Made by a program: the position numbers and the translations under genes | The notes under the pieces: model-generated | Databases searched by the model: none | Seen by the model: only the letters and a program-made list of their open reading frames with translations | Told to the model about the DNA's origin: nothing | Assembly: GCF_002161285.1 (NCBI RefSeq) | Contig: NZ_NFHH01000028.1 | Coordinates: 1-47,259, forward strand | Direction: 5' to 3' | DNA: 47,259 bases | Source: Blautia sp. An81 | GTDB taxonomy: Bacteria > Bacillota > Clostridia > Lachnospirales > Lachnospiraceae | In this document: in pieces, positions 23,418 through 44,813 of the stretch | How positions within the stretch are numbered: the stretch's first letter is position 1 | Layout of the letters: every line of letters starts with the position of its first letter

Positions 23418-23837
23418 ATGGTTATGAAAAGAAAAGAAGCTAAAATGATTGATTTTATAGAGAAAGGAGACGAAAGAGGAAAATTAGTTGTAGTTGAAGC
23501 TTTAAAGGATATTCCATTTGAAATTAAGAGAATATTTTATATGTACGGATCGGAGAAAAATGTTATTCGTGGACAACATGCTAATAAAAAATCGCAGTTT
23601 GTTCTTATAAATGTAAGTGGTTCATCAAAAATAAGAGTTGATAACGGAGATAAATCAGAAGTTATAGTCTTAGACCGTCCTAATAAAGGAATATATATAC
23701 CATCCATGATATGGAAAGATATGTTTGATTTCTCTGAGGATTCTGTCTTATTAGTATTATCTGATCAATATTATGATTCAGAAGAATATATTCGAGATTA
23801 TGAGCAGTATTGTAAAATGATAAAAGTGAGGTTATAA
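23418..23837 (+). CDS. dTDP-4-oxo-6-deoxyglucose 3,4-ketoisomerase (FdtA/QdtA, WxcM-like cupin)
   Basis: Small cupin that moves the keto group of dTDP-4-keto-6-deoxyglucose from C4 to C3. The 139 residues show the family pattern: GDERGKLVVVE (17-27), the active-site RGQHANKKSQFVL (51-63) with the catalytic His54, IYIPSMIWKDMFDFS (92-106) and VLSDQYYDSEEYIRDY (113-128). It sits four bases before an FdtB-type aminotransferase, the standard pair for dTDP-Fuc3N or dTDP-Qui3N. FdtA and QdtA products differ only at C4, which I cannot tell by eye. An in-frame ATG at 23424 is an alternative start. Confidence 0.85.
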   Translation: MVMKRKEAKMIDFIEKGDERGKLVVVEALKDIPFEIKRIFYMYGSEKNVIRGQHANKKSQFVLINVSGSSKIRVDNGDKSEVIVLDRPNKGIYIPSMIWKDMFDFSEDSVLLVLSDQYYDSEEYIRDYEQYCKMIKVRL

Positions 23838-23840
23838 ATA

Positions 23841-24935
23841 ATGGAAATTAAAGTTAATAGGTTGGATCGAGGATATAGCAAGTATAAAAATGAATATGAA
23901 AGTAAAGCTTTAGAAATATTACGCTCAGGTTGGTATGTGTTGGGTCCGGAAGTTAATAATTTTGAAAATGAATTTGCAGATTTCATCGGGGCAAAATATT
24001 GTGTCGGATTGGCTAGTGGTCTGGATTCTTTATGGCTAGCTTTTAAGATCCTAGGTATAAAAGAAGGGGATGAAGTGATTGTTCAGGGTAATACATATAT
24101 AGCCAGTGTCATGGGGATTACAATTAATGGGGCTACACCTATTTTCGTAGAACCAGATCAATATAATAATATTGATACCGAAAAAATTGAATGTAAAATC
24201 AGCGATAGGACAAAAGCAATTTTGGTTGTACATTTATATGGTCAGGCTTCAAATATGGATAAAATATTACAACTCTGTAAAAAATACAATTTGAAATTAG
24301 TAGAAGATTGTGCTCAAGCCCATGGTGCAAAATATAAAGGGAAAATGGTAGGATCATTTGGAGATATTGGATGCTTTTCTTTTTATCCATCGAAAAATTT
24401 AGGAGCATTTGGCGATGGGGGAGCCATAGTAACAAATGATGAAGAAATAAATCGTTTAATGAGAATTTATCGGAACTATGGTAGTGAGAAAAGATATTAC
24501 AATATGGTTGTGGGGGCAAATTCTAGACTGGATGAGCTACAAGCTGGTTTACTACGTGTGAAACTGACACACCTTAATGATATAAATCAAGAAAGAAGTT
24601 ATATAGCTAATCGATATTTAGAAGAGATAAAAAATGAGAATATTTTATTACCGAAAATATTAGAAGAGGCTACAACAGTATGGCATCAATTTGTGATTCA
24701 TACACATAGGCGTAAAGAATTGATTGAATATTTAGAAAGTAATAATATTAATACACTTATCCATTATCCAATACCTCCACATTTGTCTGAAGCATATAAA
24801 TATTTAGGATACAAAAAAGGAGATTTGCCAATTACTGAAAAATATGCAAATGAAGTGCTTTCTTTACCAATGTATAATGGAATGACTGATAAGGAAATTA
24901 GTTATGTTGTTAGTAATGTAAACAATTTTAAGTAG
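23841..24935 (+). CDS. dTDP-3-keto-6-deoxyhexose aminotransferase (FdtB/QdtB type)
   Basis: PLP-dependent DegT-family enzyme making dTDP-3-amino-3,6-dideoxyhexose. Key parts: [14 protein letters not shown] (33-46), [12 protein letters not shown] (58-69), [14 protein letters not shown] with Asp156 on the cofactor ring, and [15 protein letters not shown] with the Schiff-base Lys185. The [14 protein letters not shown] form is typical of 3-aminotransferases (FdtB, QdtB, TylB, DesV) and differs from the HAVKNLTTAEGG of the enzyme at 2693. It follows the ketoisomerase by four bases, so the pathway is clear. dTDP-glucose synthesis genes (rmlA, rmlB) are not in the window and must come from elsewhere. 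Confidence 0.88.
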
Positions 24936-28125: not shown

Positions 28126-30060
28126 ATGAAAAAAAGTTTTGATAGCCTTTTAGTGATGCTTTTAGTTATAATACAATTTATGATTTCTATAAATCCAATA
28201 TATGCTTCAGCAAATCAAAATGATAAAAATTCAGATGATATATTTGAACAGATAAATATAGAAAGTGAAGAAGTAGCCGAGGATAGAAGTAATAGCGATG
28301 AAATTGAAAATAATAAAGAAGAGAATATAGCAGAAGAAGTAATAGAAGATAATAGTAAAAGTGAAGAGCTTGAAATTAAACATGAAAAAGAAGAATTGAC
28401 AGAAGACGAAAAAGAAGATAATGGCAATAATGAGGAGTTTGACATTAAACAGGAAGAAGAGAATTTAGAAGACAAAAAAGAAGACAATGGTAATAATGAG
28501 GAGTTTGACATTAAACAGGAAGAAGAGAACTTAGAAGACAAAACAGAAGATAATAGTAATTCTGAAGAATCTGAAATTAAACAAGAAGAAAGTATGGAAG
28601 AAGAAGTAACCGAAAATCAAAGTAATAATGAAGAAGATGGTAAAGGGAATAATATAGAAGGTCCGGCAAATAGTTGGAGATATTTTAATGGGGAAAAAAT
28701 GATATTAGACAAGCCGGGTGAAGAACGGACCATTAGTAGTAAAAATGCATGGACTAAAGTGGATGGCTTTTATATTAATTCTAGAGGTGAAATAATTGAA
28801 GGAGCACTTTCCAAAGGAATAGATGTTAGCGAATGGCAGGGGATAATCGACTGGGATACGGTAAAAAAAACAGATGTAGAATATGCAATAATTAGATGTG
28901 GATATGGGATGAATCAAGAGAATCAAGATGATAAATATTGGGAGAGAAATGCGTCTGAATGTACGAGATTGGGAATTCCATTTGGAGCATATTTGTATTC
29001 ATATGCGGATAGTGTCGAAAAAGCAGAAAGTGAAGCAAGACATGTTTTAAGATTAATAAAAAACTATAAGTTAGAATATCCAATTTATTATGATTTAGAA
29101 GAAAATTCTGTTAGACAAAAATTGTCAACTAGTGAAATCGCAAAAATAGCAAAAACATTTTGCGATATAATATCGGAAGCAGGATATAATGTAGCAATAT
29201 ATGCAAATACAGATTGGTTTAGTAATTATTTGATAGATCCTTTTTTTGATACTGTAGAAAAATGGGTGGCCCAATATAATAGTACATGTACATATACAGG
29301 TAATTATACTATGTGGCAATGTACAGACATAGGAAATGTTAAAGGAATTAGTGAAAATGTAGATATTAATATGGATTTTGGAACAATAAAAAAATATAGG
29401 GTATTGCTTCAAGGAGGAAAATATTACGGTTATTTTGGAGGTGATAAGCTATACGGAGAACAAAAAGTTGATGGTGCGTGGTATTATTTTGATATGAATT
29501 GTAAAGGCGCAGCAACAATTGGTTGGAGAGAAGCTGGAAAGAATAAATATTATTATGGAATAGATGGAAAATTAGCATTAGGAGAGACTAAGATAGGAAG
29601 TTCATGGTACTATTTCAGAGGGAATGGAACTATGTTTACAGGTTGGAGAGAAGTTGGAAAGAATAAATATTATTATGGAACAGATGGAAAATTAGCATTA
29701 GGAGAGACTAAGATAGGAAGTTCATGGTACTATTTCAGAGGGAATGGAACTATGTTTACAGGTTGGAGAGAAGTTGAAAAGAATAAATATTATTATGGAA
29801 CGGATGGAAAATTAGCATTAGGAGAGACTAAGATAGGAAGTTCATGGTACTATTTCAGAGAAAATGGAACTATGCTTACAGGTTGGAGAGAAGTTGGAAG
29901 GAATAAATATTATTATAATGAGGATGGAACATTGACATTTGGAACAAAAAAAATAAATGGGAACTGGTATGCTTTTAGTAAAAGAAATGGACAAATGGTT
30001 GTTAATTCTTGGTATGAAGGAAAATATTATGGGAAAGACGGAATTAGAGTTGAGAGTTAA
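28126..30060 (+). CDS. Secreted GH25 lysozyme with acidic repeat region and C-terminal wall-binding repeats
   Basis: Secreted muramidase that would cut the MurNAc-GlcNAc bond of peptidoglycan. Residues 1-28 are a signal peptide. Residues 30-175 are extremely acidic (Glu/Asp/Asn), with two 22-residue near-identical units at 96-117 and 118-139. A short wall-binding-like stretch (183-226) leads into the GH25 domain (229-420), with GIDVSEWQG (Asp233) and YYDLEEN (Asp323, Glu325) as catalytic residues. Residues 426-644 are aromatic-Gly repeats of the CW-binding type (GWREVGKNKYYYG, WYYFRGNGTM), including three near-identical 40-residue units at 466-585. GAAAGGA supports ATG 28126. It is the only enzyme of peptidoglycan in the window. 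Before the IS insertion it lay about 25 bases after the acyltransferase stop, so it belonged to that operon. Confidence 0.9.
   Translation: MKKSFDSLLVMLLVIIQFMISINPIYASANQNDKNSDDIFEQINIESEEVAEDRSNSDEIENNKEENIAEEVIEDNSKSEELEIKHEKEELTEDEKEDNGNNEEFDIKQEEENLEDKKEDNGNNEEFDIKQEEENLEDKTEDNSNSEESEIKQEESMEEEVTENQSNNEEDGKGNNIEGPANSWRYFNGEKMILDKPGEERTISSKNAWTKVDGFYINSRGEIIEGALSKGIDVSEWQGIIDWDTVKKTDVEYAIIRCGYGMNQENQDDKYWERNASECTRLGIPFGAYLYSYADSVEKAESEARHVLRLIKNYKLEYPIYYDLEENSVRQKLSTSEIAKIAKTFCDIISEAGYNVAIYANTDWFSNYLIDPFFDTVEKWVAQYNSTCTYTGNYTMWQCTDIGNVKGISENVDINMDFGTIKKYRVLLQGGKYYGYFGGDKLYGEQKVDGAWYYFDMNCKGAATIGWREAGKNKYYYGIDGKLALGETKIGSSWYYFRGNGTMFTGWREVGKNKYYYGTDGKLALGETKIGSSWYYFRGNGTMFTGWREVEKNKYYYGTDGKLALGETKIGSSWYYFRENGTMLTGWREVGRNKYYYNEDGTLTFGTKKINGNWYAFSKRNGQMVVNSWYEGKYYGKDGIRVES
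28411..28542 (+). repeat. Two 66-bp tandem units in the acidic region
   Basis: 28411-28476 and 28477-28542 are 66-base copies encoding KEDNGNNEEFDIKQEEENLE plus DK, differing only at silent third positions (for example GATAATGGC/GACAATGGT). Weaker, older copies of the same acidic pattern lie on both sides. Confidence 0.85.
29521..29880 (+). repeat. Three near-identical 120-bp tandem units (wall-binding repeats)
   Basis: Copies at 29521-29640, 29641-29760 and 29761-29880 differ at only a few bases over 120, each encoding a 40-residue double wall-binding unit. A diverged fourth copy starts at 29881. Such identity suggests recent duplication or homogenisation. Confidence 0.9.
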
Positions 30061-32753: not shown

Positions 32754-34622
32754 ATGAAAAAAATACAAACAAATACTAAAAAAAAGAATCTTTGTATTCC
32801 AATCATGATTTTTTTGCTCGCAACTCTTCCAAGAGTTATATTTTGCTTCTTCATGATCCCAGTAGGAGTGCTTTCCGATGAAACTGCAACGATTTCTGGG
32901 GGAGCATATTTGGCAGGATATGACTGGTCCCAGGTAATACAGCATGCAGGATATTATGGCACAGGTTTCACAGCGCTTATGGCTCCGCTGTTTATGGCTA
33001 CCGATGATCCTGTGATCATCTACAGAGGGATAGGAATGGTCTGTGCAGTGCTTCAGGGGGCTTCCTCCCTGATCGCCTATAGAATTTTTACAAAATATTT
33101 TTCTATAGAGAAAATACTCTTTGTGGCAGTAGCCGCAGTTGCTTCTTCTTATTTAGTAACGGATTGTTCTATCATTATTTTTAATGAACATCCTCTTATG
33201 CTGTGTTCATGGATCATAGCTTGGATTTTATTGTATCTCCAGAAAAATCTGGATAATAAGAAGAAAAAGATAAGAGCCACTTTGCTTTTAATCTTAGTAT
33301 TAGGATATAGCCTGACTCTCCATACAAGGGCTATTGCTTTCTGGCTGGCTGTGGGAATTGCAGTGGTGTTTTATGCCTGGCTCTATCACAGATGTTTGAT
33401 TTCCATTCCGGCTGCGGTTATCAGCGGAGGCGTATTTGCGGCGGCAGGTACATGGTATGTGCAGTATATACAGGGAAAACTTTGGATAGCAGACAGTGCT
33501 TCCAGTATGAGAAATGCTGAAATTCATCTTTCTGGGGGGCCGCTTCAGCTTTTGGATCCACAAAATTGGCAGGCATGGGCCAATATTGTGATCGGTCAGA
33601 TACATACGGCAGGAGTATTTACCGGCGGCATTTTTATTCTATTTTTTGTGATATTTACACATTTACTTTGGAAAGCGCTTTGGAGAAGAAAAGAATTACA
33701 GGGACAGGATCTTTCTGCAGTGGAGAGGGGGACCTTTCCGGTTATCGTATTTTGTATGGCAGGAATTGCTATGACTATGCTGGGTCAGTCCTTTTCCTGG
33801 CTGCCAGGATCCAGAGAAGTGATTGCCGCAGGATTTGAAAATGATCTTTATGCGACAAAAGCTTATGGGTATCTCCGGTATTTTGGACCTTTCTGCGGCC
33901 CACTGTTTTGTATATGCTGCGTCTGGATGTATAAACGTAGAGAGCAGATCCTTAAATATTTTAGACCGGCTTTGGCTGCTCTGATGGTATGCGAAGCTTA
34001 TTGGATGATCTGCATTGTTCCATATATCTATCATTGTGGACAGATTGGTGTTTTTAATTTTTATTTTCCGTTTTCTTTGTGGACGCTGGATAAAGAAACA
34101 AGGCTGCTGGCTCTGCTGCCGGCGTCAGTAATCCTTTTCCTGTCCTTTATTTTGTGCTGGGTCATGGTGAAAAAGAAACAGCAATGGGCGTCGGTTTTAT
34201 TTGTCTGCGGGATATTTGTAGAAGTGTACTTTTTTATTGGTATTGCATGGGACAGAGAATTTATGAAAGACAACTGGGAAATTGCAGATGAAAGCTATGG
34301 ACTTATCAAGTCTTTGGAGGAGAAAATAGATATACCAGATACAATTTATGTACAGGACGCCAGGGACTGGATGACAGACCAATTTACCTACTATGAGTAT
34401 CAATTTCTTCTGAACCGGTATACGATCATACCGGAAGTTCCGGAAGATACGGTGGAAGAAGCTGTTTTCTTTACGAATATGGTGTACACGGATAACGATT
34501 ATTATGAGTGGACATCTAAAGGGTATGCATATCTGGTCTTAGATGAGGATGAATTGCTGCTGGTAAAAGGCGAAAAGCTGCAGTCCGAATTTAGAGAAGC
34601 TGGTGTAGCACTGAAAGAATAA
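32754..34622 (+). CDS. GT-C-like multi-spanning membrane protein
   Basis: A 622-residue protein with about eleven hydrophobic helices and a soluble C-terminal tail. The outer loop after helix one has GVLSDETATIS (38-48), with the Asp-Glu pair typical of lipid-phosphate-sugar-dependent GT-C enzymes. GYYGTGF, PLFMATDDPVIIYRGIGM and LTLHTRAIAFWLAVGIAV align with the cassette protein at 21658, so the two are homologues. It opens a run of membrane enzymes and I infer that it glycosylates a surface polymer or lipid outside the membrane. The ribosome site (AGAAGG) is rather far (13 bases) from the ATG. Confidence 0.62.
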   Translation: MKKIQTNTKKKNLCIPIMIFLLATLPRVIFCFFMIPVGVLSDETATISGGAYLAGYDWSQVIQHAGYYGTGFTALMAPLFMATDDPVIIYRGIGMVCAVLQGASSLIAYRIFTKYFSIEKILFVAVAAVASSYLVTDCSIIIFNEHPLMLCSWIIAWILLYLQKNLDNKKKKIRATLLLILVLGYSLTLHTRAIAFWLAVGIAVVFYAWLYHRCLISIPAAVISGGVFAAAGTWYVQYIQGKLWIADSASSMRNAEIHLSGGPLQLLDPQNWQAWANIVIGQIHTAGVFTGGIFILFFVIFTHLLWKALWRRKELQGQDLSAVERGTFPVIVFCMAGIAMTMLGQSFSWLPGSREVIAAGFENDLYATKAYGYLRYFGPFCGPLFCICCVWMYKRREQILKYFRPALAALMVCEAYWMICIVPYIYHCGQIGVFNFYFPFSLWTLDKETRLLALLPASVILFLSFILCWVMVKKKQQWASVLFVCGIFVEVYFFIGIAWDREFMKDNWEIADESYGLIKSLEEKIDIPDTIYVQDARDWMTDQFTYYEYQFLLNRYTIIPEVPEDTVEEAVFFTNMVYTDNDYYEWTSKGYAYLVLDEDELLLVKGEKLQSEFREAGVALKE

Positions 34623-34645
34623 ATCTATGATAAGGAGCAAAAAGT

Positions 34646-35680
34646 GTGGAGAAAAAAGAACCAAAGCGGATCTTATATATTGATCTGTTAAATATTGCTG
34701 CATGTTTTGGTGTGGTGGTCCTCCACTGCAGCAATACGGTATTTGATTACCGATTAAATCATACATGGATATTTTCATTGCTTATGCAGGTGGCCTTTTA
34801 CTGGACCGTCCCGATCTTTGTAATGCTTTCCGGCGCAACGTTGATGAATTACAGAGAAAAGTATTCCACTAAAATTTATTTTAAGAGAAGATTTATCCAT
34901 GTAATAGGGCCATTTTTAATTTGGAGTACTGTTTTTCTAATCTGGAAATTGTGTACCGGAGAATTAGTTTGGGAAAGCTGGAAGACTACTGTCAGCTGGT
35001 ATCTTGGAAATGGAATAGAGAGTATTTATTGGTTTTTTTATCCTTTATTTGGAATGTATTTGTTGATACCGGTGTTTTCCATGCTGACAGGAGCCGGGGG
35101 AAAAAAGATCCTTTATTATATATTGATGATCGCTGGGGGATACAGCTGTGTCTTGGCGTATCTTCCAGATCATTTTCAAATTTATTATAATGCAGCGCTT
35201 TTTTCACCATTAGCTAATGGCTTTGTAGGATATATTGTGCTGGGATGGCTGTTAAGCAAAGAAAATCTAGGTAAAAAAATGCGGTGTCTTATTTATGGGA
35301 TTGGTGTATTATGTTTTGCTTTAATGTTTGTATATACATTATTGCAGTCAGGCAGAGATGGGACATTTTCTTATACTTTTTTTGATTCTAGCGGGCTTAC
35401 TGCTTATGGCATGGCTGCGGCAGTCTTCGTATGGTTCAGATATCACGACTGGAGTTTTTTAGAAAAAGAAAAAATCCGCAGGACGATCAAAACGATGTCA
35501 GGCGCCAGTTTTGGTATTTATTTGATCCAAATGCGGATTATAGCTCCGCTGATATGGGAGAACCCGGAGCATAACGGTATCCGGTGGATGACGGTAGGAG
35601 CAGTAGGGATCTATCTGATCTGTATGGCAATCGTTTTTATTGTTAAAAAAATCCCGATATTAAGACGAGTGTTTCCTTAG
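34646..35680 (+). CDS. Acyltransferase family 3 membrane protein
   Basis: Integral membrane O-acyltransferase with ten helices. RILYIDLLNIAACFGVVVLH has the conserved helix-one pattern ending in the key His, and WTVPIFVMLSGATLMNYREK is the second family motif, followed by the basic loop KRRFIHVIGPFLIWSTVFL. YWFFYPLFGMYLLIPVFSML and MSGASFGIYLIQMRIIAPLI are also typical. Start is GTG at 34646 with AAGGAG six bases upstream; no ATG fits. It probably adds acetyl or succinyl groups to the glycan built by its neighbours. It is not a close copy of the cassette acyltransferase at 25258. Confidence 0.85.
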   Translation: MEKKEPKRILYIDLLNIAACFGVVVLHCSNTVFDYRLNHTWIFSLLMQVAFYWTVPIFVMLSGATLMNYREKYSTKIYFKRRFIHVIGPFLIWSTVFLIWKLCTGELVWESWKTTVSWYLGNGIESIYWFFYPLFGMYLLIPVFSMLTGAGGKKILYYILMIAGGYSCVLAYLPDHFQIYYNAALFSPLANGFVGYIVLGWLLSKENLGKKMRCLIYGIGVLCFALMFVYTLLQSGRDGTFSYTFFDSSGLTAYGMAAAVFVWFRYHDWSFLEKEKIRRTIKTMSGASFGIYLIQMRIIAPLIWENPEHNGIRWMTVGAVGIYLICMAIVFIVKKIPILRRVFP

Positions 35681-35694
35681 GAGGAGGTTATAAG

Positions 35695-38217
35695 ATGAAA
35701 GATTGGATCAGAAAAAAAGGCCTTTTTTATCTTCTGATTTTTATGGTCCCTATTGTTATTCTATCATTGATCACAGCTGCAAATAACTTGTATCCTTTTG
35801 GAGAAAAAACATGGCTTTTGTGGGATCAGGATGTACAGTACGCAGATTATTTTCAGTATCTGAAAAATGTATTGACGGGAGAAGCCCATATAGGATATTC
35901 TTTTTCGAAGTCCTTGGGGGGCTCTCTTGTGGGGGTGTTTGCCTATTATCTGGTTTCGCCTCTGAATCTTCTGGTGGTATTTTTTCAAGATACGCAGATA
36001 CCATTATTTATTTATATAATAACTGCGATCAAGGTTGGATTATGCGGAGTAACAGCGGCATTTTTTTTCCTGCACCATGGAAAGCTGGAAAAGAGCAGAG
36101 TATTTTTGCTTTCTATGGGATATGCTCTGATGCAGTATATTTTTTCACAGATGTCGAATATTATGTGGCTGGATGGGGTCCTGCTCCTTCCGGTGATTTT
36201 GTGGGCGGTTGATCAGTTTTTAAAAAAAGGCAGGATTCTTGCAACCGTGTTTTTTACAGCTTTCTGCATTGTCCTGAACTGGTATACCGCGTATATGAAT
36301 TGTCTTTTTATTGTGCTTTATTACCTGGCACAGTATATTGGACGGTACTATAAAAAAGGAACATTAAAAAAGGCAGTTGGTAAGTTCTTTCTATTTTTGT
36401 GGGCAGAATTTTTGGGAGTGATGTGCAGCGGCTTTTTGTTTCTTCCAGCTGTTATTAGTTTGTCTAATGGAAAATCTGTGTTCGACAGCAGGATTTTTAA
36501 TTTATCAGTAAATAATTCCCCATGGGCGTTCCTAGAGGGATTTCTTGTGGGATCAAATCCTGGTGTGCGTCAGATCCCATCTTTTTTCTGCGGCATGCTG
36601 GCAGTGATCTTTGCTTTATATTTTTTCGTTTCAGGAAAGATCAGCAGGAGACGAAAGGCTACCATGGGGATTTTCCTGATAGGGATGATTCTGACCTGCC
36701 ATTTTAATTTACTTGAAAATATTTTTAATGGTCTCAGATTTGTGTATTCTTATCCATATCGCTTCAGTTATTTGATCATCTTTACCTTTCTTTTGACAGC
36801 CTCAGAAGGGGTGGAGGTATTTGAACCTCGTGATAAGAAGAAAGTGTTATTTTTATTGATCGTCTTCTATGTGCTTATAGGAGCTTTGACTATATGGATG
36901 CCTTTGGAGCATCCAAAGTATCTGTGGATTTCCGGTGGGATAGCTCTGGTAACAGGAGTTTTGATTTTCTGGAACCGTCATTATCAAAGGTATGCATTGT
37001 GTATTCTTGTATGTATAGAGCTGGGATTGAACGGATTTTTGGTACTTCGTATGATAACAGAATATTCAGGATCTGCGCAGGCCTATCAGGAGTATGTCAG
37101 CGAGGCAAATAAGACACAGGAGGCCTTGGAGAAATATGATGATACACCCTTCTACCGGATGGAACAGACCTCTGCCAGAGGAAGTGATGCAAATGGAGAC
37201 AGGATCCATGCACATTATTCTGAAAATATGGCTTATGGCTATTATGGGATATCTCAATATTCTTCTTCATATGATTATCCTGTATCTGAATTTATTTCTA
37301 AACTGGGATACTCAGATTCCATAGATCTGACTATATATGATGAGCCGATTCTTGCATCAGACGCATTTCTTGGGATTAAGTATGTACTGTCTGACTTTGC
37401 AATCCCTTTTTATGCTGAGATAGAAAGTATTCCAGAATATAATGGGAAAAGCGTATATGAAAATCCATATGTACTGCCCCTGGCTATGCCTGCTTCTGAA
37501 AAAGTACTGCAGATAGTCGAAGATACGGATAATCCTTTTGTGTATCAAAATCAGTTTTTTTCCCTTATATTGGGCGAAGAGACACAATTGTATAAGGAAA
37601 TCCCATGTGATGAAGAGAATACAGCAGATGGGGTCAGATATATCCTAGACACAGAGAAGCTGGAGGGAGAAAATCCTATTTATGGATATGCGCGTCCCGA
37701 ACAGCAGGATCTGATCCTTAAAATAGACGGGGAAAAAAGATGTGTGTATAATACCTGGCTTAGTTATCTTGTTTTTAATATCGGGTCGTCAAGCCAGGAA
37801 CATTCTGTTGAGTTTTGTAAAGATCAGGGGGATTTTTCAGTTGGCGCACATTTTTGGTATTTGGATATGGATGTGTGGAAAAACGTTGTAGATCGGTTAA
37901 ATACAGGAAATACAGAAGTGACACAGTTTGAAGACGGAAAAGTAAAATTTTCCTGTGAATCTGACAAAGATGGCTATATTATCACAAGTATACCTTATGA
38001 TGAAAATTGGGAGATCAGTGTGGACGGAAAAGAGGCAGAGGCCCAGTCTGCAAATGGAAGCCTTTTGGCTGTTTCGACCGATGGCGCAGCAAGACATGAG
38101 ATTGTTATGGAGTATCATGTGCCGGGCGTCCTGCCGGGAATAATTATAACGGCGGTGGGCGCAGGGGCCGCTCTGCTAACGAATAAAAGAATACGCAGGA
38201 AAGGAGCTGCTTTATGA
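35695..38217 (+). CDS. YfhO family membrane glycosyltransferase-like protein
   Basis: Large (840 residues) membrane protein of the YfhO group; the Bacillus subtilis member is linked to glycosylation of lipoteichoic acid. About twelve helices occupy residues 10-460, then a 350-residue outer beta-rich domain and a final helix (about 810-830). The first outer loop has LLWDQDVQYADYF with the Asp44-x-Asp46 pair and Gln48-Tyr49 that define the family. SFSKSLGGSLVGVFAYYLVS and SPLNLLVVFF follow as usual. GLRFVYSYPYRFSYLIIF is another conserved stretch. A strong AGGAGGAGG site precedes the ATG. Its stop overlaps the next ATG (ATGA), so the two are translationally coupled. Confidence 0.9.
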   Translation: MKDWIRKKGLFYLLIFMVPIVILSLITAANNLYPFGEKTWLLWDQDVQYADYFQYLKNVLTGEAHIGYSFSKSLGGSLVGVFAYYLVSPLNLLVVFFQDTQIPLFIYIITAIKVGLCGVTAAFFFLHHGKLEKSRVFLLSMGYALMQYIFSQMSNIMWLDGVLLLPVILWAVDQFLKKGRILATVFFTAFCIVLNWYTAYMNCLFIVLYYLAQYIGRYYKKGTLKKAVGKFFLFLWAEFLGVMCSGFLFLPAVISLSNGKSVFDSRIFNLSVNNSPWAFLEGFLVGSNPGVRQIPSFFCGMLAVIFALYFFVSGKISRRRKATMGIFLIGMILTCHFNLLENIFNGLRFVYSYPYRFSYLIIFTFLLTASEGVEVFEPRDKKKVLFLLIVFYVLIGALTIWMPLEHPKYLWISGGIALVTGVLIFWNRHYQRYALCILVCIELGLNGFLVLRMITEYSGSAQAYQEYVSEANKTQEALEKYDDTPFYRMEQTSARGSDANGDRIHAHYSENMAYGYYGISQYSSSYDYPVSEFISKLGYSDSIDLTIYDEPILASDAFLGIKYVLSDFAIPFYAEIESIPEYNGKSVYENPYVLPLAMPASEKVLQIVEDTDNPFVYQNQFFSLILGEETQLYKEIPCDEENTADGVRYILDTEKLEGENPIYGYARPEQQDLILKIDGEKRCVYNTWLSYLVFNIGSSSQEHSVEFCKDQGDFSVGAHFWYLDMDVWKNVVDRLNTGNTEVTQFEDGKVKFSCESDKDGYIITSIPYDENWEISVDGKEAEAQSANGSLLAVSTDGAARHEIVMEYHVPGVLPGIIITAVGAGAALLTNKRIRRKGAAL

Positions 38218-39998
38218 AAAAGACAGTAAGAGTTTTGATATTGATGGTTCTGTCATGGATCTGTGTCGTGGCAATACCATATGCGATCCGTCTGGGAGGA
38301 GATCCCCTTCCGATCAGAAACAGTGTGGTATCCATTCTTTTATTTGCAGTGATTTTTTTTGTGTATAAAAAGAATTGGCGGAGTATTCTCAATAGAAATG
38401 CTGTTATATTATGGATTTTAGGATTTATTTTTTCCGCTGCACTGATAATCGGATCCAACTATTATTTGTATGATGAAATAGGAGGAACTTATGGCTTTTT
38501 GATGATAGCGGCAGTTACTCCCTTCATGGCGATTATAGTAGGAGCGCTTTATAAAGCATGGCCTGTGTGGATGTGCAAATTAGAAAGCAGTGCAGCTGAG
38601 CGGTGGCTTGTGAAAAAACAGTGCAGCGCTGGTAAAACTTTTCTGATCGGCTGGGCAATAATTTTTGTCTGCTGGCTGCCTGGAATTGCCGCGGCTTATC
38701 CCGGGGTTTATGTGATCGACACAGTTTTTCAGTCCAAATGGTACTTTACCGGCGAGATGCTGGCCCATCATCCCGTGCTCCATACATATTTGATCGGCTG
38801 GTTTTTATCTTTAGGAAAAGCAGTGTTTCACTCTTATGAAACAGGTGTATTTTTATATTCTCTGTTTCAGATGCTGTTTATGTCGGCGGTTTTTTCTTAT
38901 ACATTGTTGAAACTTAAGAAAAAGTTGCCATTAGTTTTGTGTGCAGTCTTTCTTCTTTTATATGGAATTTTGCCTTATCATGCAGTCTTCTCTTTTACAG
39001 CGACTAAGGATGTGATCTTCTCTGGCTTCTTTTTGCTGGTTGTATTTCAGACTGCAGAAATGGCGGATGATAAGAATATTTTTTGGAAGAATTGGAAAAA
39101 GATTGTTTTATATGGGGGTCTTTGGCTGCTGGCCTGTGCATTTCGTAATACAGGCATCTATATTTTTGCCTGTATGATACCTGTATTATTGATTTTCGGA
39201 AGAGAATATTGGAAAAGGATTCTGCTGATGTCCATAGCAGTGCTCGGAATATGGATGATCTATACGGGACCTGTATATAAAGCACTGGATGTGGAGAAAG
39301 GAAGCCCGGCAGAGATTTTAAGCGTTCCCATGCAGCAGATTTCAAGAGCTATGTTATACGGAGAGGAGGATGAGACAGAAGAGTTTCAGGAACAGGTCAG
39401 GACTTATATCCCGGATTATGAAAAGTATACACCTAGAGTTGCTGATAATGTAAAGGCTAGCTTTAATAAAAGTGCCTTTGAAGAAAACCCGGCGGGCTTT
39501 ATTAGACTTTGGGCAGAACTGGGGATCAAGTACCCTGGCTGTTATGTAGACGCATTTTTGTCTATGAATCTTGGCTTCTGGTATCCTGATATGGTATATC
39601 CGGATCCTGGAGCTTATATGTCTCATATAGATTATGAAAATGCCCCGGAAGAAGGAAAAGACCAATATTCACAAGAGGGTATTTTCATTGAGAGAAACAG
39701 CCTGCTGCCTGGCCTGGAAAAGTTCTACAGGGATTGGACGGAAGGCGGGGTTTATCAGAAATATCCGGTAATATCCATGCTGTTTAGTCCTGGATCAGCT
39801 TTCTGGTGTCTTTGTCTGGCAGTTGGGTATCTTATCTTTATTAAAAGATCTGGGAAATTACTGTCATTTGTGCTTTTGGGAATTTTGTGGCTGACATTAA
39901 TGGTTTCACCGGTGGTGCTCCTGCGATATGCGTATCCTCTGATGGTAAGTATTCCTGTGATAGCTGGGGTTTGCTGTGAAAAGATAAAGGAGAACTAA
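38214..39998 (+). CDS. DUF6020-like multi-spanning membrane protein
   Basis: A 594-residue membrane protein of the DUF6020 type as I recall it, with about eleven helices and no assigned function. The informative stretch is WLPGIAAAYPGVYVIDTVFQ (154-173) with Asp169, followed by HHPVLHTYLIGWFLSLGKAV. A proline-bounded outer loop carrying an acid and a His-His-Pro resembles GT-C transferase active-site loops. A conserved TATKDVIFSGFFLLVVFQ helix pair comes mid-protein, and a 140-residue outer segment (about 365-510) precedes the last helices. The start overlaps the YfhO stop by four bases. Role as a polyprenyl-phosphate-sugar glycosyltransferase is inferred from shape and neighbours only. Confidence 0.7.
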   Translation: MKKTVRVLILMVLSWICVVAIPYAIRLGGDPLPIRNSVVSILLFAVIFFVYKKNWRSILNRNAVILWILGFIFSAALIIGSNYYLYDEIGGTYGFLMIAAVTPFMAIIVGALYKAWPVWMCKLESSAAERWLVKKQCSAGKTFLIGWAIIFVCWLPGIAAAYPGVYVIDTVFQSKWYFTGEMLAHHPVLHTYLIGWFLSLGKAVFHSYETGVFLYSLFQMLFMSAVFSYTLLKLKKKLPLVLCAVFLLLYGILPYHAVFSFTATKDVIFSGFFLLVVFQTAEMADDKNIFWKNWKKIVLYGGLWLLACAFRNTGIYIFACMIPVLLIFGREYWKRILLMSIAVLGIWMIYTGPVYKALDVEKGSPAEILSVPMQQISRAMLYGEEDETEEFQEQVRTYIPDYEKYTPRVADNVKASFNKSAFEENPAGFIRLWAELGIKYPGCYVDAFLSMNLGFWYPDMVYPDPGAYMSHIDYENAPEEGKDQYSQEGIFIERNSLLPGLEKFYRDWTEGGVYQKYPVISMLFSPGSAFWCLCLAVGYLIFIKRSGKLLSFVLLGILWLTLMVSPVVLLRYAYPLMVSIPVIAGVCCEKIKEN

Positions 39999-40005
39999 GT
40001 GGAAG

Positions 40006-42219
40006 ATGGAAAGGAAAAGATTAGCTAAGAAATCGTTTTTATTCTTGATAATATTGCTCATCCTTGCCGGAGTTTTTCTCATGAAAGAGTTAGGATATGG
40101 ATATTGGGATGGCGGAAGCAGCCCTGACGTCTATTGGGAGGAAAATGAAAAGGGGGAGAAGGGATGGCCTTGTTTGATCCTGGCCCTTAATAAAGGAGAA
40201 TATGAATTAGAACTGTCTTATTCCGCTGGTCAGGAAGGCATATGGAAAATAGAGGACAGGAATCAAAATGACGGGAATAATTATAGAGGAAAAGTTCTTC
40301 AGGAAGGAAGCTATCCCGCGGGAGAAGGGGAAAAAATCCAGATAGATTTTTCCATAGAAAAAAATACTGATAGTTTGTATTTTACATTTTATTCTGACTC
40401 AGAGGATGTTTCTGTGCAAAATTGGAACATTTCCCTGATAAAGGATGAGTATACGGATAGTTTATTCCTGTTTTTGGCGGCGGCAGGAGTTATTTTTGCA
40501 TTATTTATGGTCTGGGACTGGGAAAAGCAACGCAATTATGTGATTATGTCAGCATCGGGAATTTTCCTGACAATGCCATTTTTTGGAGATTATCTCCAAA
40601 GCGGGCATGATCTTCTCTTCCATTTGGCAAGAATAGAAGGGATTGCGGAGGGGCTTAGTCAGGGACAGTTTCCGGTGCGCATGGATACCGTGATGAATCA
40701 AGGGCTTGGTTTTCTGGATCCGATCTATTATCCGAACTTATTCCTGTATCCTGCCGCAATACTTTGTTTACTGGGCTGTTCACTGCTGAATGCCTACAAG
40801 ATCCTTATCTTTTTCATAAATATTTTCTCGGCGATTTTAGCATATTTAGGATTTCGCGGATTGCTGAAATCGGAACGATTAGGACTATATTGTGCTTTGC
40901 TTTATGTGTTGAATCCATATCACTTGACGAACCTCTATTTGAGGGCTGCATTAGGAGAACTTTTGGCGTCCATGTTTTTACCGCTCCTTTTATATGGGAT
41001 TTATGAACTGTTTTGTGGCGACTATAAAAAATGGTGGATTACAGCAATCGCAGCTACGGGGATCGTGCAGAGCCATATTTTGACAGTTGAGTTGTCTGTG
41101 CTTTTTGTGACGGCTTTTGCTATACCTGTCATAATCTGGCAGATACGAAAAAAGAAAGTATGTATATATAGGATCATAGCTTTGGGAAAAACGGCGGGAG
41201 CCTGTATATTAGCTAATGCCTGGTTTTTGTTTCCTCTTTTCATGCAAATGGGAAGAAAGACAGCTATTGCCGGCGCAGACGATGTGCTGTCGAGAAGTAC
41301 TGTTTATTGGCAGCAGATGTTCCAGACAAGCTTTAAAATGCAGGGAGGGAACGTTTTTTATGGCGCGGAAGGTGAAATGCCAGAAACTATTGGACTGGTA
41401 TTGCTTATTGGTCTGATCATTTATCTGGGATATCGTTTTTTTACAGATAAGTTAGGAAAACATGTTTACAGGATCGCAGATGTATGTGCTTTGCTTGGCA
41501 TACTTTCCTGCTATGCGGCCAGCACATGGTTTCCGTGGGACTGGATTCAGAGTTTTTCAGTGGCGGATAGTCTTCTATGTGTGATACAGTATCCCTGGAG
41601 AATGCTGGGATTTGCCAGTTTATTTTTGGCTGTTGTATCAGGGATTGCCATACAGGAACTCCTAAAGGATAAAAAAGTACTGATCGCGGGAGCTATGACA
41701 GGATTGTCGCTGTGGATGGCAGTAATGAGTATGGACAGTTACCAAACAGATGGTACGACTTTTTTAAAGAGCAGGACACAGGCATATACTTCTGCTTACT
41801 ATGCTGACTATTACGATACAGGGATAGGGTATGACTGGATGTGGCAAGAAAGAAATAAAATTGATACAAAAGCAGATGTGAAAATTTCTTCCTTTAGAAG
41901 AAAGGGAACAGATCTATCCTTTTCATTTGAATTTGAGAATCCGGAAGACAAGGATAAAGATATGCATCTACCTTTATATGACTATAATGAATATGAAATA
42001 TTCATTAACGGCGAAAAAATCTCTTATGGACAGGATGATAAAAATCGTATTCTGATCTGTATTCCTGAGGAAATGACTGAAGGCGTGGTTCAAGTAATAT
42101 ACAAGGAAAATAAGCTATATCGCATAGGGGATATCCTTACCGGAGGATTCATAGTATATCTTGCAGTCTATTCTATAAAGAGAATAAATCGTAAAAAATG
42201 TCTTGCAGGAAGAATGTGA
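40006..42219 (+). CDS. PTPS-related large membrane protein (6-pyruvoyl-tetrahydropterin-synthase-related domain)
   Basis: A 737-residue membrane protein resembling the PTPS_related family, a misnomer for GT-C-shaped proteins of unknown function. An N-terminal outer beta domain (about 32-150) lies between helices one and two. The conserved core follows: SGHDLLFHLARIEGIAEGL (199-217) with His201-Asp202 and His206, GQFPVRMDTVMNQGLGFLDP, YYPNLFLYP, LYVLNPYHLTNLYLRAALGE and IQYPWRMLGFASLFL. A second beta domain ends the protein. AAGGAG is 13 bases before the ATG. It completes four consecutive putative GT-C-like proteins, with the acyltransferase among them. Confidence 0.75.
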   Translation: MERKRLAKKSFLFLIILLILAGVFLMKELGYGYWDGGSSPDVYWEENEKGEKGWPCLILALNKGEYELELSYSAGQEGIWKIEDRNQNDGNNYRGKVLQEGSYPAGEGEKIQIDFSIEKNTDSLYFTFYSDSEDVSVQNWNISLIKDEYTDSLFLFLAAAGVIFALFMVWDWEKQRNYVIMSASGIFLTMPFFGDYLQSGHDLLFHLARIEGIAEGLSQGQFPVRMDTVMNQGLGFLDPIYYPNLFLYPAAILCLLGCSLLNAYKILIFFINIFSAILAYLGFRGLLKSERLGLYCALLYVLNPYHLTNLYLRAALGELLASMFLPLLLYGIYELFCGDYKKWWITAIAATGIVQSHILTVELSVLFVTAFAIPVIIWQIRKKKVCIYRIIALGKTAGACILANAWFLFPLFMQMGRKTAIAGADDVLSRSTVYWQQMFQTSFKMQGGNVFYGAEGEMPETIGLVLLIGLIIYLGYRFFTDKLGKHVYRIADVCALLGILSCYAASTWFPWDWIQSFSVADSLLCVIQYPWRMLGFASLFLAVVSGIAIQELLKDKKVLIAGAMTGLSLWMAVMSMDSYQTDGTTFLKSRTQAYTSAYYADYYDTGIGYDWMWQERNKIDTKADVKISSFRRKGTDLSFSFEFENPEDKDKDMHLPLYDYNEYEIFINGEKISYGQDDKNRILICIPEEMTEGVVQVIYKENKLYRIGDILTGGFIVYLAVYSIKRINRKKCLAGRM

Positions 42220-42278
42220 ATGGATGAAGTTTATACTGGTAAAAGACTTTTATTTTTTTCTGATCTGTAGTAAAATAA

Positions 42279-42446
42279 CCTAGTGTGCTGTATCATTCAC
42301 TTTCAGCATAATGACGACGAATGAATTTTTCACTCTACAAGGCGGAGGAATGAGGCGTAGCGGTGGCTACGCTGATTGACGACAACGCCGCAGATGGAAG
42401 TTCAGGCAAGTCATTATGAAAAATGTGAGTGATACAGTACACTAGG
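42279..42446. repeat. 168-bp nested palindromic element (MITE-like)
   Basis: The outer arms 42279-42300 and 42425-42446 are 22-base inverted repeats with two mismatches, starting CCTAGTGT and ending ACACTAGG. A second perfect stem, CATAATGAC (42307-42315) with GTCATTATG (42410-42418), lies inside. The tip is GCGTAGC (42355-42361) with GCTACGC (42366-42372) around GGTG. No coding sequence is present. It fills most of the 251-base gap between the PTPS-related and GT2 genes. The whole would fold as one long stem-loop. Confidence 0.8.
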
Positions 42447-42473
42447 TATGAAAAATAGTGAGAGGAACTAATG

Positions 42474-43409
42474 ATGGATAAAATAGCAGTGTTGATTCCT
42501 TGTTATAATGAAAGTCAGACAATAGAGAAGGTAGTACGTGATTGGAAAGTAGAGTTACCGGAAGCGGCAATTTACGTGTATGATAATAATTCTACAGACC
42601 ATACTGATGAAATTGCCAGAGCTGCAGGAGCCATAGTTCGATATGAATATCAGCAGGGCAAAGGCAATGTGATCAGAAGGATGTTTCGCGAAATTGACGC
42701 TTTTTGTTATATCTTGATCGATGGAGATGATACCTATCCAGCAGAAGTTGGACGGGAGATGGTAGAGAGGATAATGACTCGAAATGTTGATATGGTTGTA
42801 GGTGACCGGCTTTCCTCTACATATTTTGAAGAAAATAAAAGACCATTTCATAATTTTGGAAATAGTCTTGTAAGAGCAGCTATTAATAAGTTATTCCATA
42901 GTAATATCCGGGATATTATGACAGGATATCGAGCCTTTAGCTATGAATTTGTTAAGAGTTTTCCTGTGTTGTCAAAGGGATTTGAAATTGAGACAGAGAT
43001 GAGTATTCATGCAGTAGACAAGAATATGAATGTTGAAAATATCATCATTGAGTACAGGGATCGACCGGAGGGAAGCGAGTCGAAATTGAATACTTACTCA
43101 GATGGACTGAAAGTATTAAAAACGATAGGGCGGCTTTACCGAAATTACAAGCCGATGCAGTTTTTTGGAATTGCAGCACTTGTATTACTGCTGATTTCTG
43201 CGGCGATGTTTATCCCTGTATTGGCTGTCTATATCAGAACAGGTCTGGTCCCTAATTTCCCCACTTTAATTGTCAGTGGGTTTATTACCCTTGCGGCCTT
43301 AGAATCTTTGTTCTCTGGTCTGATCCTATCTACTTTAGCCGAAAAGGAACGCCAGGAATTTGAATTCCGGCTTCAATTAGTGAGAAAAATGAAAAAGGAT
43401 GAGATATGA
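42474..43409 (+). CDS. DPM1-like GT2 with C-terminal membrane helices
   Basis: Predicted polyprenyl-phosphate sugar synthase: transfers a sugar from a nucleotide donor to undecaprenyl phosphate on the inner face. MDKIAVLIPCYNESQTIEKV opens the domain, YVYDNNSTDHT is the nucleotide site, QQGKGNVIRRMF the helix, and LIDGDDTYPAE the metal-binding DxD. DIMTGYRAFSYEFVKSFPV and EYRDRPEGSESKLNTYSDG are typical of this DPM1/GtrB group. Two helices near 232-255 and 264-288 close it. Two ATGs are adjacent; the second (42474) is better spaced from AGGA at 42463-42466. It overlaps the GtrA gene by four bases. Confidence 0.88.
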   Translation: MDKIAVLIPCYNESQTIEKVVRDWKVELPEAAIYVYDNNSTDHTDEIARAAGAIVRYEYQQGKGNVIRRMFREIDAFCYILIDGDDTYPAEVGREMVERIMTRNVDMVVGDRLSSTYFEENKRPFHNFGNSLVRAAINKLFHSNIRDIMTGYRAFSYEFVKSFPVLSKGFEIETEMSIHAVDKNMNVENIIIEYRDRPEGSESKLNTYSDGLKVLKTIGRLYRNYKPMQFFGIAALVLLLISAAMFIPVLAVYIRTGLVPNFPTLIVSGFITLAALESLFSGLILSTLAEKERQEFEFRLQLVRKMKKDEI

Positions 43410-43846
43410 TAGAGCTAATAAAAAAATTATATGAAAAATACGAAGAACTGGTTATGTATGTGATCGTAGGAGTCTGTACTATGATCGTATCGCTGGTGTC
43501 TTACTATATCCTTGCAAATCCGTTGGGATTATACTATCAGACTGCAAATATTATAAGTTGGATATTGGCGGTAGCATTTGCTTATGTGACGAATAAAAAG
43601 TTTGTGTTTAAATCCCGCTATTCTGGAATGCATAATACGGTAAAAGAAATGTCCAGCTTTATATCCAGCAGGGTTGCTTCTCTTTTGGTAGAAATCCTCA
43701 GTATGTATTTTTTTGTCCAGATATGTCAGATAGATGATAATATTGTAAAATTGATGAATCAGGTTTTGGTAACAGTGTTAAATTATATTTTTAGTAAATT
43801 TTGGGTATTTAGAAAATCAAGCAAAACCCAGGAAAATAAAAACTAG
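43406..43846 (+). CDS. GtrA family membrane protein
   Basis: Small four-helix membrane protein of the GtrA/PST family, thought to help move polyprenyl-phosphate-linked sugars across the membrane. The 146 residues show VMYVIVGVCTMIVSLVSYYI, WILAVAFAYVTNKKFVFKSR, the mid-loop SSFISSRVASLLVEIL and the ending YIFSKFWVFRKSSK; the paired NKKFVF and KFWVF ends are the family marks. The ATG overlaps the previous stop (ATGA) and a second DPM1-like gene follows, so both neighbours are glycosyltransferases that make its likely cargo. Confidence 0.92.
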   Translation: MIELIKKLYEKYEELVMYVIVGVCTMIVSLVSYYILANPLGLYYQTANIISWILAVAFAYVTNKKFVFKSRYSGMHNTVKEMSSFISSRVASLLVEILSMYFFVQICQIDDNIVKLMNQVLVTVLNYIFSKFWVFRKSSKTQENKN

Positions 43847-43868
43847 GGTTATTGGGGAGGAATTGAAT

Positions 43869-44813
43869 ATGGAAAAGCTGACACTGATCGTGCCCTGTTA
43901 TAATGAAGAAGAAGTCCTTCCTTTTTTTTACGAAGAATTTCAGAAAGTTGCATCAAAACTGAAAAATTATAACACAGAAGTTATTTTTGTGGATGATGGC
44001 TCTAAAGATAAAACGTTGTCTATTATTAAGGAAATGGCTGCCAGAGATGATAGAGTAAAATATCTTTCTTTTTCCAGAAATTTTGGAAAAGAGGCCGCTA
44101 TTTATGCTGGATTTCAGCATGCAGATGGGGATTATATCGCTATGCTGGATGCAGACCTTCAGGATCCGCCTTCTTTACTTCCGGAAATGATGAAGGGAAT
44201 TGTAGAGGAGGGATATGATTCTGTGGCCACTAGGCGAGTGAGCAGAAAGGGAGAGCCTCCTGTTAGATCCTTTTTTGCCAGGTGCTTTTACAAATTAATG
44301 AAAAGGATTTCTACAGCCGAGATTATGGATGGAGCACGGGATTTTCGGTTAATGACCAGGCAGTTTAAAGATGCTATACTGGAAATGGGTGAATACAATC
44401 GGTTTTCAAAAGGAATTTTTGGCTGGGTAGGTTTTAAAACGAAATGGATAGAATATGAAAATATAGAAAGAAAGGCAGGAGAGACAAAGTGGTCTTTTTG
44501 GAAATTATTTAAATACAGTCTAGAGGGAATCATTGGTTTTTCTACAGCGCCTCTTGCCCTGGTATCTGCTTTAGGAATTCTGGTTTGCTTGGTGGCATTT
44601 TTATTTTTAGTGATTATTCTTTTGAAGACATTGTGCTTTGGTGATCCGGTAGCCGGATGGCCTTCAATGACTTGTATTATTCTTATGCTTGGGGGAATTC
44701 AGCTTCTCTGTATGGGAATCCTGGGTATGTATCTTTCAAAGACGTATTTAGAAACCAAGAAGAGACCTATCTATATATGTGGAGAAACAAATCTGAATGA
44801 AACAAAAGGATGA
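43869..44813 (+). CDS. GtrB-like bactoprenol-phosphate glycosyltransferase (GT2)
   Basis: Membrane GT2 that loads a sugar (glucose in GtrB) on undecaprenyl phosphate. MEKLTLIVPCYNEEEVLPFF, VIFVDDGSKDKT, LSFSRNFGKEAAIYAGFQHA, MLDADLQDPPSLLPEM and DGARDFRLMTRQF are exactly the GtrB/DPM1 motif series. ERKAGETKWSFWKLFKYSLE and two C-terminal helices (about 228-255 and 262-288) are also standard. An in-frame TTG at 43863 is only two bases from GGAGG, so the ATG at 43869, eight bases away, is the likely start. It probably works with the GtrA protein just upstream and with the GT-C-like proteins that use its product. Confidence 0.92.
   Translation: MEKLTLIVPCYNEEEVLPFFYEEFQKVASKLKNYNTEVIFVDDGSKDKTLSIIKEMAARDDRVKYLSFSRNFGKEAAIYAGFQHADGDYIAMLDADLQDPPSLLPEMMKGIVEEGYDSVATRRVSRKGEPPVRSFFARCFYKLMKRISTAEIMDGARDFRLMTRQFKDAILEMGEYNRFSKGIFGWVGFKTKWIEYENIERKAGETKWSFWKLFKYSLEGIIGFSTAPLALVSALGILVCLVAFLFLVIILLKTLCFGDPVAGWPSMTCIILMLGGIQLLCMGILGMYLSKTYLETKKRPIYICGETNLNETKG

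Follow-up and report, generated by a model that had tools for sequence, protein, structure and literature searches.

The window analysed here is a 47,259-bp stretch of Blautia sp. An81 DNA that makes up an entire contig of a 4.3 Mb genome. Eight open reading frames (ORFs) between positions 32754 and 44813, all on the + strand and with short gaps or overlaps between neighbours, lie exactly where the initial annotation had placed them. We consider that these eight genes, taken together, are probably best explained as a decoration cassette that varies between strains, works by multi-component transmembrane glycosylation and adjoins a polysaccharide locus of the Wzx/Wzy type in Blautia. The eight-gene set is itself not one conserved system. 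Genes are named below by their start positions, and G and L numbers denote individual genomes and loci.

The 32754 gene (32754-34622) encodes a GT-C-like protein of 622 residues from an unnamed family, without a Pfam or NCBIfam match (GT, glycosyltransferase). It is followed by genes for a membrane acyltransferase of the Acyl_transf_3 family (34646-35680, 344 residues; PF01757, 4.7e-29), a YfhO/PgfM-like GT-C protein (35695-38217, 840 residues; PF09586, 2.9e-140), a DUF6020 GT-C protein (38214-39998, 594 residues; PF19484, 1.3e-34) and a PTPS-related, AftD-like GT-C protein whose AftD match is sub-threshold at 0.015 (40006-42219, 737 residues). The four large membrane proteins had been called consecutive; all four are present, but the acyltransferase gene separates 32754 from YfhO. 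Downstream lie an AglJ/DPM1-like GT2 protein with C-terminal hydrophobic segments (42471-43409, 312 residues; Glycos_transf_2; AglJ, 1.7e-59), a GtrA-type flippase (43406-43846, 146 residues; PF04138, 2e-26) whose gene start overlaps the end of the 42471 gene, and a PgfS/CsbB/GtrB-like GT2 protein (43863-44813, 316 residues; Glycos_transf_2; PgfS, 6.9e-101) for which a TTG start was called, with an ATG two codons later.

A 251-bp gap between the 40006 and 42471 genes contains a palindromic repeat resembling a miniature inverted-repeat transposable element (42278-42447), which splits the GT-C block from the donor-synthase block, so the eight genes may form two transcription units. The element is 170 bp long with 38-nt arms that are 84% complementary, and its RNA fold has a z-score of -12. 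It is multicopy across Blautia genomes, with related copies in 9 of the 21 genomes searched (4 matches in the window's genome, 10 in G002 and 12 in G012). No RNA family reached its gathering score anywhere in the window, and a promoter and terminator scan (75 against 56.2 expected, standard deviation 6.6; 15 against 11.3, standard deviation 3.3) was not used.

The two GT2 proteins are predicted polyprenyl-phosphate-sugar synthases. The 42471 protein scored 201.7 bits against AglJ (TIGR04182; equivalog cut-off 325) and matched the dolichol-phosphate mannose synthase 5mlz at 3.1e-9 in a comparison with PDB sequences, while the 43863 protein scored 337.5 bits against PgfS (NF047588; equivalog cut-off 500) and matched GtrB 5ekp at 3.9e-75. 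The YfhO protein gave 220.3 bits against PgfM1 (4.3e-65; cut-off 1400) and 200.6 bits against PgfM2 (4e-59; cut-off 1500). With all of these matches under the NCBIfam equivalog cut-offs, equivalence of the window genes to PgfS and PgfM was rejected, as was an assignment of 42471 as an archaeal AglJ equivalog. The two synthase types and the GtrA flippase that had been read from the window hold up by homology. Judged by sequence, the locus has the genes that mark multi-component transmembrane glycosylation, coding for GT-A polyprenyl-phosphate-sugar synthases, a flippase of the GtrA type and GT-C proteins with an outer-loop acid.

GT-C enzymes are expected to carry an acid in the first outer loop. 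Such acids had been noted in the membrane proteins, and alignments of three of the four families showed them to be conserved, in each case after an N-terminal hydrophobic segment. They are D42/E43 in the 32754 family (11 sequences, the glutamate invariant), D169 in the DUF6020 family (20 sequences, invariant) and D202, with H206 and R209, in the 40006 family (16 sequences, all three invariant). Two sequences with an in-frame stop in their matches, L027 and L036, were omitted from the DUF6020 and 40006 alignments.

We compared the four families with a profile built from 27 PMT_2 proteins of related genomes by profile-profile alignment with hhalign. The probability of a match was 97.7% for 32754, 96.6% for DUF6020, 95.9% for 40006 and 91.5% for YfhO. 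In control comparisons with PMT_2, reversed alignments gave at most 13% and five unrelated membrane-protein sets at most 2.7%, the latter being weak controls as the sets are small (4, 5, 15, 7 and 4 sequences) and two of them are flippase sets. Reversed alignments compared with their own family reached 46.1% for 32754, 88.3% for DUF6020, 79.8% for 40006, 48.9% for YfhO and 6.2% for PMT_2, and up to 52.2% with other families. Because reversed families reached 88% against themselves, values below about 90% were treated as uninformative, including those between DUF6020 and 32754 (23.9%), 40006 (57.6%) and YfhO (7.8%); the YfhO value of 91.5% barely exceeds the worst control. The 32754 family matched the 40006 family at 94.6% and YfhO at 91.8%, and the match between 40006 and YfhO (96%) covers a C-terminal part outside the membrane core. 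After realignment, the confident stretch between 32754 and PMT_2 begins at residue 93, and D42/E43 were aligned only without realignment.

Individual family members add to these profile matches. One DUF6020 protein (L020) matches both DUF6020 (2.9e-53) and PMT_2, the latter at 28.3 bits over a cut-off of 26.1. Among 16 relatives of 40006, three have a match to PTPS_related (PF10131, best 3.6e-6), a family that PMC7801869 places in the GT-C clan of Pfam. None of the 11 members of the 32754 family has a GT-C Pfam match. By profile comparison, then, all four membrane families match PMT_2, a GT-C family, in keeping with the GT-C-like character that had been supposed for them.

Conservation of the gene set was surveyed in 116 genomes including the window's own, 20 of them from the genus. 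An AglJ-like match was accepted at E values up to 1e-30 and a PgfS-like match up to 1e-40. YfhO occurs in 56 genomes, DUF6020-like genes in 14, 40006-like genes in 8 and 32754-like genes in 7; AglJ-like genes occur in 20, with a single match each, and PgfS-like genes in 86. All four membrane families are found together in one genome only, that of the window. The initial annotation had treated the genes as a set to be found co-conserved; the survey speaks against this, and the four GT-C genes were rejected as one conserved unit.

What recurs is a core of AglJ-like, GtrA, PgfS-like, YfhO and DUF6020 genes, present as a single locus in 3 of the 20 genus genomes: the window (G000), Candidatus Blautia pullistercoris (G002) and B. 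hansenii (G011), which are all three AglJ-positive genomes of the genus. Gene order varies, being AglJ-GtrA-PgfS-YfhO-DUF6020 in B. hansenii, AglJ-GtrA-PgfS-DUF6020-YfhO-DUF6020 in Ca. B. pullistercoris and YfhO-DUF6020-40006-AglJ-GtrA-PgfS in the window. The 32754 and 40006 genes look accessory. Homologues of 32754 lie among polysaccharide glycosyltransferase genes in G011, G004 and G033; in G011 the AglJ-like gene follows about 10 kb further downstream. The 32754 gene is perhaps part of the polysaccharide cluster and not of the cassette. A search for related loci with 32754 as the query found no relative. The 40006 family adjoins a PgfS-like GT2 gene in 2 of 18 loci (G034 and G067) and occurs in tandem copies in G041 and G060. 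A 32754 paralogue of 582 residues, without a Pfam match, is encoded inside the polysaccharide genes of the window itself (21658-23406), and G004 and G011 likewise have a gene of each type, about 10 kb apart or less.

This pattern would also be expected if the locus were a mosaic of independent modules acting on different polymers, namely YfhO-PgfS-GtrA, AglJ-DUF6020 and the polysaccharide-cluster GT-C proteins 32754 and 40006. The restriction of all four membrane families to one genome, the placement of the 32754 homologue in G011 and the repeat element between the two blocks all favour such an arrangement. There is also precedent in Lactococcus lactis, where a single GtrA protein, CflA, is described as serving three GT-A/GT-C pairs on three polymers (PMC8035078). 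Against it stands the five-gene core, which stays together in the three AglJ-positive Blautia genomes despite altered order and copy number. We regard a mosaic as a serious possibility, somewhat short of probable.

The pairing of donor synthases with GT-C proteins was examined from both sides. Among the best 80 of 449 confirmed AglJ loci from named genomes, mostly Lachnospiraceae by title, 76 were mapped; in L160, L207, L211 and L212 no AglJ gene was called among the ORFs. The profiles used to label AglJ and PgfS genes in these loci are broad and also catch other GT2 proteins, and the PgfS count was not used. In 24 of the 76 loci a DUF6020 gene is found on the same strand no more than four genes from AglJ, and in 19 a GtrA gene. 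The DUF6020 gene is directly adjacent to AglJ in 18, one of which is a short L152 fragment. Of 27 DUF6020-labelled ORFs near AglJ, Pfam was run on 22, all but L137, L138 and three short fragments from L152, and 21 of them matched PF19484; L137 and L138 duplicate the sequences of G002 and G011, and L086 is the same locus as L137. Across the 116 genomes, AglJ is present in 10 of the 14 that have DUF6020 and in 10 of the other 102 (odds ratio 23, p 1.6e-6), and DUF6020 and YfhO co-occur with an odds ratio of 3.0 (p 0.09).

Large multi-pass proteins, counted on both strands by a simple hydropathy scan with DUF6020 included, occupy 54 of the 146 positions next to AglJ; elsewhere in these loci they account for 78 of 938 positions (odds ratio 6.5, p 1.2e-17). 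Eight of ten large proteins beside AglJ in other genomes had no Pfam family at E values up to 0.01; of the other two, one matched DUF6056 and one, under the cut-off, PMT_2. A bare DUF6020-AglJ-GtrA unit without PgfS or YfhO is found in [Ruminococcus] torques ATCC 27756 (L143), where genes for an ABC-2 transporter, Bac_transf, WecG/TagA and LCP proteins lie in the same region, and further units lacking YfhO and PgfS occur in Mediterraneibacter loci. Two loci, L144 and L145, carry, three genes upstream of AglJ-GtrA, a second GT2 gene (AglJ-like by the broad profile) with a gene for a small multi-pass protein after it, possibly a duplicated donor synthase.

We propose from these neighbourhoods and co-occurrences that DUF6020 is a GT-C partner of the AglJ-like synthase. 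For YfhO, a PgfS-like partner is expected from the CsbB-YfhO pairing, and in 30 YfhO loci examined, drawn from the 56 YfhO-positive genomes, a PgfS-like gene lies within 1.5 kb in 13 and a GtrA gene in 13. We infer that YfhO is the partner of the PgfS-like synthase.

Several observations weigh against this assignment and the reading built on it. All three Blautia core loci have DUF6020 immediately next to YfhO, and in none of them is it directly adjacent to AglJ; in G007, which yields no AglJ match at the 1e-30 threshold, YfhO adjoins DUF6020 at a contig end. Counted from DUF6020, AglJ lies within 1.5 kb in 2 of 23 loci and YfhO in 5 of 23. On these observations DUF6020 is a broader family, one part of which travels with AglJ. 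G004 has YfhO-PgfS-GtrA, the GtrA match beside YfhO-PgfS being weak at 19 bits, and no AglJ-like gene at the same E value; a homologue of the 34646 acyltransferase (225 bits) is encoded nearby. The genomes and loci are related to one another, so the counts and p-values overstate independence. Finally, PDB profile searches with the 32754, DUF6020 and 40006 families recovered no GT-C chain. The matches that did appear were not counted: 25 for DUF6020, membrane-receptor and other likely chance matches (the best, 3.5e-4, to adrenergic receptors), one likely chance match for 40006 and none for 32754.

The adjacency of DUF6020 and YfhO would fit an arrangement in which DUF6020 and YfhO of Blautia both draw on the donor made by PgfS, the AglJ-like product being used by 40006, 32754 or an enzyme encoded elsewhere; in Ca. 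B. pullistercoris one DUF6020 copy directly follows PgfS. Against such sharing stand the DUF6020-AglJ-GtrA units of [R.] torques and Mediterraneibacter and the genome co-occurrence of DUF6020, far stronger with AglJ than with YfhO. We consider this arrangement rather unlikely.

Under the preferred reading of a two-donor decoration cassette, the 42471 and 43863 proteins, working inside the cell, would each attach a sugar to polyprenyl phosphate. The two sugars are probably different, or different anomers, because the synthases belong to different GT2 subfamilies. The single GtrA protein would flip both lipid-linked sugars, for which CflA of L. lactis, with its several pairs, offers a precedent (PMC8035078). 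Outside the cell, YfhO would use the PgfS-made donor and DUF6020 the AglJ-like donor on an acceptor glycan, 40006 and 32754 would serve as optional extra GT-C proteins adding further sugars from the same two donors, and the Acyl_transf_3 protein (34646) would acylate the product.

The acceptor is most likely the co-encoded surface or wall polysaccharide. The cassette is preceded on the same strand by a Wzx/Wzy-type surface-polysaccharide cluster (113-32488), recognised from its Pfam families. It encodes MBOAT and AlgX-like proteins, an initiating Bac_transf, GT2 and GT4 glycosyltransferases, UDP-galactopyranose mutase, Wzy_C, two flippases, UDP-glucose dehydrogenase, DegT, FdtA and a second acyltransferase. 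This cluster would be the most likely source of the acceptor. The gene context in the window and in the [R.] torques locus L143, where the neighbourhood points to a wall-attached polysaccharide, leads us to favour the co-encoded polysaccharide or a wall glycopolymer. Within the cluster, FdtA (PF05523) adjoins the DegT aminotransferase at 23418-24935, a pair that we take to suggest a 3-amino-3,6-dideoxyhexose in the repeat unit. Much of the region at about 16-32 kb has a G+C content of only about 28-32%, and the cassette (about 32-44 kb) one of about 37-42%, which is consistent with a mosaic locus. In Ruminococcus gnavus, of the same family, a rhamnose-rich polysaccharide is described that appears to be peptidoglycan-anchored (PMC12413058).

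Secreted wall enzymes are encoded near the cassette, and the type of their binding repeat differs between loci. The window has a GH25 protein with Choline_bind_3 (28126-30060), Ca. B. pullistercoris has GH25 and YkuD proteins that both carry Choline_bind_4 (L137, 1621-4915), and G004, another genome of the genus, has GH25 and YkuD proteins that both carry ChW (L088, 836-4760). Of 128 sequences at least 8 kb long, a set that was not deduplicated, 10 encode repeat or YkuD-like proteins.

The cassette might instead decorate lipoteichoic acid or wall teichoic acid, in the manner of CsbB-GtcA-YfhO. The window's genome contains four LCP matches and two matches to the sulfatase family, which includes LtaS, so that teichoic acceptors are still conceivable. 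The DUF6020 unit of [R.] torques likewise lies near TagA/WecG and LCP genes. The initial annotation had linked YfhO to lipoteichoic acid; that link stands, but it is too narrow. In Bacillus, Staphylococcus and Listeria, YfhO and CsbB-type genes are described as acting on lipoteichoic or wall teichoic acid, with wall teichoic acid the YfhO-type substrate in Listeria (PMC8035078), and the PgfM proteins, which the window YfhO also matches, are linked to surface proteins in Streptococcus mutans (PMC5856776). Against a teichoic acceptor, the window cassette is located in a strain-variable polysaccharide locus, and contig C1 of the same genome has another PgfS-YfhO pair (L136, 6985-10567), between histidine-kinase and dihydrouridine synthase genes, which is a possible candidate for a teichoic acid role. 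PgfS-like and YfhO genes within about 4 kb are also found in G002, G006, G008, G012, G014 and G019, giving 7 of the 20 genus genomes in total. Decoration of teichoic acids by the window cassette therefore seems unlikely to us.

Surface-protein O-glycosylation of the kind carried out by the S. mutans Pgf system (PgfS, PgfM1, PgfE and PgfM2), whose genes are described as required to modify the adhesin Cnm and WapA (PMC5856776), is suggested by the best NCBIfam matches of 43863 (PgfS) and 35695 (PgfM1/PgfM2), but is improbable given that these matches fall under the cut-offs, that the window set has GtrA, extra GT-C genes and polysaccharide neighbours, and that no epimerase was found among the 33 Pfam-scanned ORFs of the window (the rest of the genome was not searched for one, nor were Thr-rich adhesins searched for systematically).

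A more far-reaching version of the decoration cassette can be imagined, in which a multi-sugar acylated side chain is built wholly outside the cell, one polyprenyl-phosphate monosaccharide per step, by up to four GT-C proteins with two donors and one flippase, and in which the decorated polymer is the receptor of the neighbouring GH25 and L,D-transpeptidase wall enzymes, with glycan and binding module exchanged together. We hold this extension to be doubtful.

The decoration cassette proposed here would give a testable function to DUF6020, a Pfam family of unknown function, and amounts to a two-donor decoration module for gut Blautia and relatives. If it is correct, annotators could use it to recognise, in the polysaccharide loci of many commensals, where variable side chains are likely to be added outside the cytoplasm. 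The system had been put forward as undescribed. Machinery of this kind, multi-component transmembrane glycosylation, has in fact been described; what appears to be new is the combination of genes, most of them for unstudied enzymes, and the role proposed for DUF6020 as a partner of the AglJ-like synthase. A literature search, with most subscription papers outside its scope, found no paper naming DUF6020. Queries on YfhO with Blautia found only unrelated work, and those on GT-C with PTPS_related, or on GT-C, GtrA, YfhO and exopolysaccharide, found none that we recognised as describing this gene set. In the passages of a review of the group that treat surface polysaccharides, the structures discussed come only from R. 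gnavus (PMC12413058).

Several known systems resemble the window in part. The S. mutans SccN/SccM and SccP/SccQ pairs (PMC11754754) likewise place two GT-A and two GT-C proteins in one cluster, with different linkages made outside the cell; they are described as acting on one wall polysaccharide, SCC, one pair per anomer of the glucose-phosphate-undecaprenol donor (Glc-P-Und). The likeness is one of description; the SCC flippase is unidentified, and the further modification of SCC is glycerol phosphate, in place of the acyl group predicted for the window. The S. mutans Pgf system (PMC5856776) has in common with the window a PgfS-like GT2 and a PgfM/YfhO-like GT-C protein; unlike it, the window has GtrA and DUF6020, matches below the equivalog cut-offs and no PgfE-type epimerase among the scanned ORFs. 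Production of a glucan exopolysaccharide in Lactobacillus johnsonii requires a similar pair of GtrA- and GtrB-like proteins (PMC7117936), although, unlike in the window, its authors report no further glycosyltransferases adjoining. The GT136 pentofuranose system (PMC11127046) likewise combines a lipid-linked donor, a flippase and a GT-C protein and adds a side chain after polymerisation, but it has a polyprenyl phosphoribose synthase where the window has GT2 synthases, and a flippase of the MATE family where the window has GtrA. Neither DUF6020 nor PTPS_related is named among the multi-component systems in the tables and corresponding passages of PMC8035078. CsbB-GtcA-YfhO and its relatives, described there, share with the window the GT-A synthase, the GtrA flippase and the GT-C protein, the YfhO family being common to both; unlike them, the window encodes synthases of two GT2 subfamilies, one GtrA protein, up to four GT-C families and an acyltransferase.

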